Positions 11,457 to 18,058 of a stretch of 64,000 nucleotides of DNA are shown here, piece after piece (position 1 is the first letter of the stretch; each line of letters opens with the position of its first letter). This DNA is from an endosymbiont of Escarpia spicata (GTDB lineage: Bacteria > Pseudomonadota > Gammaproteobacteria > Chromatiales > Chromatiaceae). Made by a program: the position numbers and the translations under genes. The notes under the pieces are model-generated. The model was not told the origin of the DNA, made no database searches, and saw nothing but the letters and a program-made list of their open reading frames with translations. The DNA lies in NCBI GenBank assembly GCA_003349915.1, contig QFXE01000008.1, positions 62,001 to 126,000 on the forward strand. Direction: 5' to 3'.

Positions 11457-11542
11457 GTAGGTTGGGTTAGGCTGTTTTTTTTGGCCGTAACCCAACAATG
11501 TGCGTGGCTATTGTCGTGTTACGCTGCGCTAACACGACCTAC
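11457..11542. repeat. Palindromic intergenic repeat, family A
   Basis: Bounded by GTAGG and CCTAC. The left arm pairs TTGGGTTAGGC with GCCGTAACCCAA around a T8 loop. The right arm pairs GTCGTGTTA with TAACACGAC. This copy is essentially the reverse complement of the copy at 17974-18058, in both arm sequences and arm order. Confidence 0.88.
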
Positions 11543-11680: not shown

Positions 11681-12427
11681 ATGACACACTATGCCAAACC
11701 CCCCAAATCCCTGCTGCGCAAAGTCGGCCGCGCGATTGCCGATTACGACATGATTCGCGAGGGAGACCGGATACTCCTTGGCGTTTCCGGCGGCAAGGAT
11801 TCTCTCTCCCTGTTGCAGATCCTGAGTCACCTGCAGACCTATGCGCCGGTTAAGTTCGAGCTGGGCGTCATCACTGTCGATCCCGAGGTAGAGGGTTTCG
11901 ATCCCGAGCCGCTGAAAGCCTATTATGAAAACCTGGGTGTATCCTGGATCTATGCAGAGCAGCCGATCATGGAAGAGGCCAGGACACGTCTGGATGGCGA
12001 CTCATTCTGTGCCTACTGCGCCCGCATGAAGCGGGGCATCATGTACTCCACCTGTCGCCGTGAGGGCTATAATGTATTGGCACTGGCTCAGCATCTCGAT
12101 GACCTGGCGGAGAGTCTCATGATGTCGATCTTCCACGGCGGACAGTTACGTACCATGAAGGCGCACTATCAGAATAATGATGGCGATATCCGCATCATCC
12201 GCCCGCTGGTCTATTGCCGCGAGAGTCAGACCGGGGCCTTCGCCCTGGAGGCTGGACTGCCTGTGATCCCCGACAGTTGCCCCGCCTGCTTTACGGCACC
12301 CACCCAACGCGCCTATATGAAGCAGTTGCTGGCAAAAGAGGAGCGGCAGAACAAACATCTGTTTGCCAATATGTTGCATGCCATGAAACCCCTGATGGAC
12401 GAGCGCCCGGATCAAGCTGACCCATGA
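11681..12427 (+). CDS. TtcA-like PP-loop thiolase, divergent
   Basis: 248 residues from ATG 11681; the frame is open upstream but without TtcA-like sequence. The PP-loop SGGKDS is at 36-41. A CxxC pair (Cys110/Cys113 in FCAYCARMKRGIMYSTC) corresponds to the [4Fe-4S] cysteines of TtcA, the enzyme that makes 2-thiocytidine at tRNA position 32. The third ligand region reads PDSCPACF (Cys200, Cys203) rather than the usual IPCNLCGSQ-type sequence, and the protein is about 60 residues shorter than E. coli TtcA. It is coupled by an ATGA overlap to a CBS protein and then a permease, which is unusual for a tRNA enzyme. It may act on tRNA or on another thiolation substrate. Confidence 0.8.
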   Translation: MTHYAKPPKSLLRKVGRAIADYDMIREGDRILLGVSGGKDSLSLLQILSHLQTYAPVKFELGVITVDPEVEGFDPEPLKAYYENLGVSWIYAEQPIMEEARTRLDGDSFCAYCARMKRGIMYSTCRREGYNVLALAQHLDDLAESLMMSIFHGGQLRTMKAHYQNNDGDIRIIRPLVYCRESQTGAFALEAGLPVIPDSCPACFTAPTQRAYMKQLLAKEERQNKHLFANMLHAMKPLMDERPDQADP

Positions 12428-12876
12428 ACCTGGAAGAGATCCTGATCCCGACGGAAGTGGCCCATATCGGCATGAGCTTCGGCGATGCCCTGGAAGAGTG
12501 TGTAAAACGGAATGTGCCGGGCATTCCCTATGTGGATGCACAGGGCAAGATCGTCGGCCGTTTTTCCCTGCGGCATGCGTTTCGCCTCTCCTGTGTGCCC
12601 CGGGACTATATTCAGGGTGCGCACCTGCTGGGTGATGATCTCGACTACATGGATATGGCCGAGGAGAAAGCGGAAAGGATTCTGCCGCTACCTGTCGAAG
12701 GTTATGTGCTGGATGATGCCATCCAGCTCAATCCCGGCGCGCAGGTAATGAAGGCGCTGGCGATCATGGAGCAGTTCAATACCGGCTATCTGTTTCTGAC
12801 TGACGGGGATGAGTACAAAGGGGTTATTACCCGGGTGGGGATTGCCCGCCTGGTGCTGAATCTGGGCTGCTGCTGA
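12424..12876 (+). CDS. CBS-pair protein
   Basis: 150 residues made of two CBS motifs (about 5-60 and 85-148). The first has IPYVDAQGKIVGRFSLRHAFR and the second YLFLTDGDEYKGVITRVGIAR. Stand-alone CBS pairs usually bind adenosyl ligands and gate a partner protein. The start overlaps the TtcA-like stop (ATGA) and the stop is three bases from the permease start, so the three are one translational unit. A regulatory role for the permease is the simplest reading. A paralogous, frameshifted CBS gene precedes the second permease at 39530. Confidence 0.85.
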   Translation: MNLEEILIPTEVAHIGMSFGDALEECVKRNVPGIPYVDAQGKIVGRFSLRHAFRLSCVPRDYIQGAHLLGDDLDYMDMAEEKAERILPLPVEGYVLDDAIQLNPGAQVMKALAIMEQFNTGYLFLTDGDEYKGVITRVGIARLVLNLGCC

Positions 12877-12879
12877 AGC

Positions 12880-14184
12880 ATGACCGCTTTCAGCGATTCC
12901 ATGCTGGCCGCCGCCCTGATTCTGGTGTTGGCCTACGCGCTGATCTTCTCGGAAAAACTTCACCGTACCAGTGCGGCAATTCTGGGTGCGGTGGTGATGA
13001 TCGGTGTCGGCATGAGTATGGATTTCTACACTCAGGAGGAGGCTATAGCGGCGGTGGACGCCAATACCATCCTGCTGTTGGCGGCGATGATGATGCTGGT
13101 CTCACTGCTGCGTCCCACCGGCGCCTTCGAATATATGGCCGTCCATATCACCCGCTGGGCGAAGGGCGATGCGCGTCTGTTGCTGATCTACCTCAGTCTT
13201 GCGGTAAGCCTGATCAGTATGATCCTGGACAATGTCACCACGGTCATCGTATTCGCTCCCCTGACTGTGTTGATCTGCCGTCTGCTCAGACTCAATCCCA
13301 TGCCCTATCTGATGGCTGAGGCGATGCTCTCCAATATCGGCGGGGCGGCGACCCTGGTGGGTGACCCGCCCAATCTGATGATCGGCAGCGCAGGAGATAT
13401 CAGTTTCAATGATTTTCTGTTCCACATGGGGCCGCCGGTGGTGGTGGTCTGGTCCGGGACTGTACTCTTACTGCTCTTTCTTTTCCGCAAACAGATGCGC
13501 CGTGGTGCTGGAGAGGTCCGGGAGCTGGTCGACACCCACGCCATCAAGGACTTGGCCGGATTACAGAAAATACTGGTGTCTTTGGCGCTGGTCGTGGGGC
13601 TGTTTTTCGTTCACCACCATTTTCACTTTTTTCCCGCCTATGCCGCTTTTATCGGCCTGGCGCTGGCCTTGGCGCTGATGAAGCCCGACATGGATACGCT
13701 GTTCAATGGCGTCAACTGGTCGGTGCTGTTCTTTTTTGCCGGGCTTTTCATGATCGTCGGCGGGGTGGAGGCCTCTGGACTGCTGAACCTGTTCGGCAAC
13801 TCACTGGCGGAGATGGCGCGGGAACCGGGCCAGCTGTTGCTGGCAGGCCTGATGCTGATGTGGATTGCCGCCGTTCTCAGCGCGGTGGTGGATAACATCC
13901 CTTTCACCGTCACGATGATACCCATTATCCTGGGACTGGAGTCCAGCGGGGTCAATATCGCACCCCTCTGGTGGGCGTTGGCGTTGGGCGTAGGTCTGGG
14001 CGGCAACGGCACCCATATCGGTGCCACGGCGAACATTATCGCGGTGGCGGAATCTGAACACTCCAATATTCCCGGTGCCCGCATCACGCCTGCCGTCTGG
14101 ATGCGCACCGGCATACCGACCACCTTTTTCAGCCTGATTCTGGCCAGCCTGTTCTATACCCTATTCTTCGACATCTTCAGGTGA
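12880..14184 (+). CDS. SLC13/ArsB/NhaD-type ion transporter
   Basis: 434 residues with about 11-12 membrane helices. Family marks are LDNVTTV near residue 110, SNIGGAATLVGDPPNLMIGSA near 150, and the mirrored VDNIPFTVTM and GGNGTHIGATAN in the second half. These two inverted half-motifs are typical of the ion-transporter superfamily holding ArsB, NhaD and SLC13 carriers. The ion cannot be read directly. Candidates are Na+/H+ antiport or Na+-coupled dicarboxylate/sulfate uptake. It is the third gene of the TtcA-like/CBS/permease unit. The paralogue at 39530-40861 shares all four motifs. Confidence 0.88.
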   Translation: MTAFSDSMLAAALILVLAYALIFSEKLHRTSAAILGAVVMIGVGMSMDFYTQEEAIAAVDANTILLLAAMMMLVSLLRPTGAFEYMAVHITRWAKGDARLLLIYLSLAVSLISMILDNVTTVIVFAPLTVLICRLLRLNPMPYLMAEAMLSNIGGAATLVGDPPNLMIGSAGDISFNDFLFHMGPPVVVVWSGTVLLLLFLFRKQMRRGAGEVRELVDTHAIKDLAGLQKILVSLALVVGLFFVHHHFHFFPAYAAFIGLALALALMKPDMDTLFNGVNWSVLFFFAGLFMIVGGVEASGLLNLFGNSLAEMAREPGQLLLAGLMLMWIAAVLSAVVDNIPFTVTMIPIILGLESSGVNIAPLWWALALGVGLGGNGTHIGATANIIAVAESEHSNIPGARITPAVWMRTGIPTTFFSLILASLFYTLFFDIFR

Positions 14185-14308: not shown

Positions 14309-14518
14309 ATGCATATTCGTACGACAACTGATCCCATCACGCTGCACGAAGTCTCGGATCCTGAACACCACCCCTGCCTCTATGATGGGGATGGCAAGGA
14401 CGGCCTTGAGATCTACTTTGAAAGTGAGGAGAACAAACGTCTCTATATGGAGATGGAGACTGAGGATCACAAGATAGTGCAGGGAAACGATACCGATGAT
14501 TACGTTGCCGAAGGTTGA
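14309..14518 (+). CDS. Small acidic protein of unknown function
   Basis: 69 residues, strongly acidic, with no signal peptide or membrane segment (begins MHIRTTTDPITLHEVSD). GAGGGAAG lies a good distance before the ATG, which supports expression. It sits nine bases before the next gene and may be co-transcribed with it. I do not recognise a family. Confidence 0.7.
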   Translation: MHIRTTTDPITLHEVSDPEHHPCLYDGDGKDGLEIYFESEENKRLYMEMETEDHKIVQGNDTDDYVAEG

Positions 14519-14527
14519 GGTGGTGCC

Positions 14528-15034
14528 ATGTTGAGACGAATCTATCTGCTGTTTCCGCAACGGCACCATGTTGAACAGGCGCTGCCTGATCTGCAACGGC
14601 TGGGCGTCGACAGATGCCATATGCATACGGTCGCCAGGGAAGGTATTGATATCTTCGGGCTTCCCGAGGCATCCGTGCGCCAGCGCACGGATTTTGGAGC
14701 ACGTTTGGAACGTGCCTTATGGAACCTGAACCTTCTGACCTTTTTTCTGGCTCTGATACTACTGGTTGGTAGCCTGTTCGCCGGTCTGCTGGGGTGGGCG
14801 CTGCTGGATGGTCTGGTTATGACCGCCACCTATCTGGCCGGGAGCTACTTCGTTCGACATGTGCCGCACGCCCATATGGACGAGTGCCGGAGTGCATTGA
14901 AGCACGGGGAGATCCTCCTGATGGTCGATGTACCCCGCTGGCGGGTTACGGATATCGGTCGTGAGATCCGCAGATTACATCCAGAGGCGGAGATTGGCGC
15001 TGTCGGCTGGACGGTGGAAGCGCTGCAGATTTGA
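14528..15034 (+). CDS. Two-helix membrane protein, DUF1269-like layout
   Basis: 168 residues. An N-terminal soluble part (1-65) contains a LGVDRCHMHTVAREG segment. Two adjacent helices follow (about 73-92 and 94-115), then a soluble C-terminal part with HMDECRSALKHGEILLMVDVP. The pattern of a ferredoxin-like fold broken by two glycine-rich helices is that of stress-associated membrane proteins annotated as DUF1269 or general-stress 17M-like. That is a resemblance, not a firm assignment. GAGG before the ATG supports the start, and the gene is probably transcribed with the small acidic gene upstream. Confidence 0.75.
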   Translation: MLRRIYLLFPQRHHVEQALPDLQRLGVDRCHMHTVAREGIDIFGLPEASVRQRTDFGARLERALWNLNLLTFFLALILLVGSLFAGLLGWALLDGLVMTATYLAGSYFVRHVPHAHMDECRSALKHGEILLMVDVPRWRVTDIGREIRRLHPEAEIGAVGWTVEALQI

Positions 15035-15049
15035 GGCGGCAATCAAAGT

Positions 15050-15123
15050 GTAGGTCGGGTTAGCGTAGCGCAACCCGACATGTATTGGTTTTGTTGGGTT
15101 ACGCTATCGCTAACCCAACCTAC
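15050..15123. repeat. Palindromic intergenic repeat, family A
   Basis: Bounded by GTAGG and CCTAC. The left arm is TCGGGTTA...AACCCGA and the right arm TTGGGTTA...TAACCCAA. Relative to the copy at 1367, the two arm types are swapped. It lies between convergent genes (membrane protein and prlC). Confidence 0.87.
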
Positions 15124-17973: not shown

Positions 17974-18058
17974 GTAGGTCGTGTTAGCGCAGCGTAACAC
18001 GACAATAATGGTGCAAATTGTTGGGTTACGGCCAAAAAGACGGCCTAACCCAACCTAC
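17974..18058. repeat. Palindromic intergenic repeat, family A
   Basis: Bounded by GTAGG and CCTAC. The left arm is GTCGTGTTA...TAACACGAC and the right arm TTGGGTTACGGCC...GGCCTAACCCAA. It is the mirror copy of 11457-11542. Confidence 0.88.

Follow-up and report, generated by a model that had tools for sequence, protein, structure and literature searches.

A widespread sister variant of TtcA, probably a tRNA cytidine 32 thiolase, encoded ahead of a CBS–transporter pair in a tubeworm endosymbiont

The TtcA-like PP-loop protein encoded at 11681-12427 of the window (the whole stretch of 64,000 nucleotides analysed here), named TtcL in this work, is a widespread sister variant of the known enzyme TtcA and lies in an ordinary operon; its presumed substrate is tRNA. 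It is likely that this divergent, short sister does the job of TtcA, and that the CBS-domain protein and the ion transporter encoded behind it are a separate regulator–transporter pair, merely co-translated with it. TtcA is the enzyme described in bacteria for 2-thiolation of cytidine 32 (s2C32). Because TtcL falls under the NCBI family cut-off, genomes that carry it could appear to lack the s2C32 modification. The existence of two types also provides a natural test of the residues that choose the target tRNA, and the linkage to the transporter is a warning that a conserved ATGA overlap need not imply a shared function.

The source genome is 4.06 Mb in size and 100% complete. The gene positions and spacing given in the initial annotation are confirmed on the sequence (Table 1): ttcL and the CBS gene, both on the + strand, overlap by four bases (ATGA), and three bases separate the stop codon of the CBS gene from the start of the transporter gene. 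Among public genomes, the closest relatives of TtcL come from tubeworm endosymbionts, with Lamellibrachia and Escarpia as hosts (97-98% identity), followed by those of Candidatus Thiodiazotropha (84-88%).

Table 1 Features of the ttcL locus, in positions of the whole 64,000-nucleotide stretch
Feature	Position	Strand	Basis
ttcL, TtcA-like PP-loop enzyme, 248 aa	11681..12427 (stop codon included)	+	ORF; PF01171 E 4.8e-17
PP-loop motif SGGKDS, TtcL residues 36-41	11786..11803	+	Invariant in alignment of relatives
First CxxC of TtcL, C110-A-Y-C113	12008..12019	+	Invariant; matches TtcA CSLC
Second CxxC of TtcL, C200-P-A-C203, within PDSCPACF	12278..12289	+	Aligned to canonical TtcA CNLC
Protein of 150 aa with two CBS domains in tandem (first domain putative)	12424..12876	+	PF00571 E 5.7e-09 at residues 97-144
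Transporter, ArsB/NhaD/CitMHS (ion transporter) superfamily, 434 aa	12880..14184	+	PF03600 E 2.1e-86, PF02040 E 1.3e-20
Two REP-like repeats in inverted orientation, in the gap that separates ttcL from the FtsX-like gene upstream	11457..11542	.	Repeat count in window

TtcA is the best match of TtcL among the NCBI families, at 210 bits against the 272-bit cut-off of NF007972. In an alignment with 29 relatives, the PP-loop, C110, C113, C200, H138, D140, D141, R174 and P175 are invariant and C203 is nearly so. TtcL and the TtcA proteins of E. coli and P. aeruginosa have in common the PP-loop, two CxxC pairs and the HxDD and IRP motifs, and all four TtcA cysteines are present in TtcL. The function of P. 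aeruginosa TtcA requires all four equivalent cysteines (PMC6082896). The initial annotation had recognized the PP-loop and the first two cluster cysteines, both found here (SGGKDS, C110/C113), and had called the protein short, which agrees with a length of 248 residues compared with 311 in Klebsiella TtcA; relative to canonical TtcA, its C-terminal part is reduced by 25-60 residues. It had also pointed to PDSCPACF as a departure from the TtcA cluster site. The motif is real, but C200 and C203 align with the second CxxC of TtcA (IPCNLCG), in a shifted register with two extra residues before the pair and one fewer after it. Loss of a cluster site at PDSCPACF was rejected because the CxxC is retained in the alignment. 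In one TtcL relative (L216, G061:C3:56500-57500), the PP-loop is kept but none of the four cluster cysteines is left, the corresponding stretches reading SYTAFS and PEDVPSEF, and in L218 one cysteine of the first pair is also missing.

The AlphaFold model of TtcL, built without cofactors, has a pLDDT of 88.5, and a fold search places TtuA and NcsA, ahead of TilS, as its top PDB matches. TtuA and NcsA, [4Fe-4S] 2-thiolases of tRNA U54 and U34, share the model fold and the central CxxC with TtcL. Terminal zinc-finger cysteines are typical of that group. TtcL has just two CxxC pairs and no cysteine N-terminal of residue 110, and terminal CxxC pairs of the zinc-finger type were not found in its sequence. 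TtcL thus differs from the TtuA/NcsA group, which bears zinc-finger cysteines at both the N- and C-termini (PMC6082896). TtcA, like TtcL, has none of them and is usually present in one copy per genome.

TtcL and TtcA are about 37% identical, and about 20 well-conserved columns carry different residues in the two types. Near the active site, TtcL has AQHLDD for GHHRDD, VDP for LDQ and PDSCPACF for PCNLCG, and such type-specific substitutions could mean another nucleoside or tRNA as the target. In a quickly built tree of 128 sequences, weakly rooted on a single long-branch outgroup, 51 canonical TtcA proteins, including cyanobacterial and beta-lineage members, form one group with an SH-aLRT support of 98, and the TtcL proteins fall outside it, with poor support (63) for their own unity. 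On this sequence evidence, TtcL is a sister group to canonical TtcA rather than a branch within it, and the distinct PxxCPACF type suspected earlier finds its place there. The initial annotation held that TtcL would simply be the tRNA enzyme if it were the only TtcA of its genome and grouped inside true TtcA; it is the sole TtcA-type gene, but it groups beside TtcA. A plain TtcA with ordinary sequence drift would account for the identical core residues and the single copy. However, this has very little chance of being right, since canonical TtcA, with cyanobacterial and beta-lineage sequences included, makes up its own well-supported group without TtcL, and the motifs of TtcL are fixed across 75 aligned sequences.

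The distribution of the two types points to functional replacement. The earlier suggestion to look for a canonical ttcA elsewhere in the genome yielded none in the complete source genome. When 370 gammaproteobacterial genomes were searched with the window protein, the matches fell into two well-separated E-value classes, with the TtcL type defined by a best E below 1e-60. TtcL type was found in 125 genomes and canonical TtcA only in 176, and none of the 370 has both, compared with about 59 expected under independence, an expectation that ignores kinship apart from nine families that contain both types in different genomes. In the window's own family, 47 of 57 genomes have TtcL, six have canonical TtcA, four have neither and none has both. 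Because TtcL and TtcA never occur together and families are mixed, TtcL seems to stand in place of TtcA in about one-third of the sampled gammaproteobacteria. The simplest cause of such non-co-occurrence is that both do the same job. TtcA-like proteins of phages and plasmids are present only at less than 60% identity.

Genomes with two matches do not alter these counts. Five of them, and one from the family sample, were read closely and gave no true pair of types; in the remaining ones the best match is of canonical type, and they belong to a family in which the one genome read had both copies canonical-looking. The two matches in G417, G383 and G396 are contig-end fragments of the same type, those in G101 are two canonical copies, and the second match in G014, a genome with 6% contamination, is a PP-loop fragment of another kind, lacking the second CxxC; all were rejected as two-type genomes. 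Genomes of the family of G101 (f46) have two matches each, and the G101 proteins (L194 and L197) are diverged TtcA copies with canonical cysteines in both.

Judged from sequence, TtcL probably catalyses the same 2-thiolation of tRNA C32 as TtcA and is the s2C32 thiolase of these bacteria. E. coli TtcA acts on tRNA-Arg and tRNA-Ser (PMC5372739). Consistently, tRNA-Arg(ACG), Arg(CCG), Arg(CCT) and Ser(GCT) of the source genome have C at position 32, a weak test because C32 is common in tRNAs; its presence is needed but not sufficient for a shared TtcA job. With ATP, the PP-loop would activate cytidine 32 of tRNA-Arg and tRNA-Ser at its C2 atom, and a sulfide on a putative [4Fe-4S] cluster held by the TtcL cysteines would then be transferred to the activated C2 to give s2C32. 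Alternatively, the position or the tRNAs that TtcL thiolates may differ from those of TtcA, with genomes keeping one enzyme or the other. The diagnostic substitutions adjoin the catalytic motifs, the C-terminal part is shortened and the TtcA cut-off is missed, all of which would fit such a change of target. However, enzymes with different products should meet by chance in about 59 of the 370 genomes and do so in none, and the known TtcA target tRNAs retain C32 here, so that another target is unlikely. The broader proposal that TtcL either has an RNA target unlike that of TtcA or is a partner of the CBS protein, in which case tRNA thiolation and ion transport would be co-regulated in these symbionts, is distinctly improbable. 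Among the papers listed in a literature search, none dealt with TtcA in sulfur-oxidising symbionts.

The CBS protein and the transporter constitute an independent two-gene module. In the sample of the window's family, the CBS protein has homologues at 16 places, of which 15 have a relative of the transporter alongside and only four have ttcL, and most ttcL loci have neither the CBS gene nor the transporter gene. Genome G034 carries the pair and, in another place, a canonical TtcA. The second CBS domain of the 150-residue protein is matched by Pfam; the first one is predicted from sequence, and a structurally characterized CBS protein gives a match to residues 9-47. The closest NCBIfam match of the transporter is the magnetosome transporter MamN, at 206 bits, far below the 500-bit cut-off, and no magnetosome genes were seen adjoining it. 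Scores with the two ArsB families are also below cut-off (97 bits against 457 and 86 against 415); PDB matches are ArsB and VcINDY. A similar pair is known from the ars1 operon of Ochrobactrum tritici, where a 151-residue CBS protein is encoded directly before an ArsB of 430 residues, which makes E. coli resistant to arsenite only with that CBS protein (PMC2440759). In contrast to that arsenic operon, no ars genes were seen beside the window pair, and a search of plasmid ars operons for the CBS protein gave no match. A second set in the source genome (L163:4355-6752, contig C12) consists of a CBS-like protein, a diverged transporter and a CBS protein, sits behind two further membrane proteins and is without ttcL; it suggests that CBS–transporter pairs recur.

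The arrangement of ttcL, the CBS gene and the transporter gene is not due to chance, and the tight coupling described in the initial annotation is borne out. In every examined locus with both genes, the ATGA overlap is exact, and it is conserved across three genus-level lineages, namely the tubeworm symbionts, Thiodiazotropha and MO_103.B15 (G024). In Thiodiazotropha and MO_103.B15, the CBS protein is only about 50-55% identical to that of the window, and the gap between CBS and transporter genes is 2-12 bases where the transporter is present. In MO_103.B15 the overlap is kept and the transporter does not follow, a hint that TtcL and the CBS protein may be connected. Because the overlap is conserved, ttcL and the CBS gene are likely to be co-translated, and lasting translational coupling in one branch is suggested. 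The conserved overlap may also reflect only a CBS gene without start signals of its own.

A joint role of TtcL, the CBS protein and the transporter had further been proposed, either in sulfur handling or in thiolation of a substrate with gated transport. AMP is produced by TtcA-type enzymes, and adenine nucleotides are commonly bound by CBS domains. Together with the overlap kept in three lineages and the persistence of TtcL–CBS without the transporter, this would suit a joint function. However, the pair is missing from most ttcL loci, most pairs are away from ttcL and one is in a genome with canonical TtcA, and TtcL and TtcA replace one another with or without the pair, as a shared tRNA job predicts. 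These data speak against the proposal, which we regard as highly improbable. The link of TtcL to the CBS and transporter genes is a lineage-specific operon, confined to a few lineages of sulfur-oxidising symbionts, and not evidence for thiolated transport substrates. In the favoured reading, the CBS protein would sense an adenine nucleotide to adjust the transporter, and the pair would have moved behind ttcL in the ancestor of a few Sedimenticolaceae lineages, where it would now be co-translated with ttcL and not share its chemistry.

A neighbour universal to ttcL loci was not found when the conserved neighbours proposed for inspection were sought. The commonest is a divergent pair of genes for SPFH/stomatin-like and NfeD-like proteins, names assigned by reading the sequence, in 33 TtcL loci (for example L016:3527-4896); in the window lineage an FtsX-like permease stands in its place. 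Downstream of the cluster, two small conserved genes (14309-14515 and 14528-15034) encode proteins of 69 and 168 residues, for which profile searches against Pfam and NCBIfam gave no match, and their order is kept in the tubeworm symbionts and in several Thiodiazotropha.

The window has nine copies of the REP-like repeat GTAGGTYGGGTTAGCG, compared with 0.01 expected, and inverted pairs of it lie at 1367-1440, 11457-11542, 15050-15123 and 17974-18058. One pair precedes ttcL and another comes after the small genes. The space before ttcL is 268 bases here and only about 90 in a 98%-identical tubeworm symbiont (L003). Because the gap is far smaller there, the pair before ttcL may be a recent insertion, and it is probably unrelated to ttcL.
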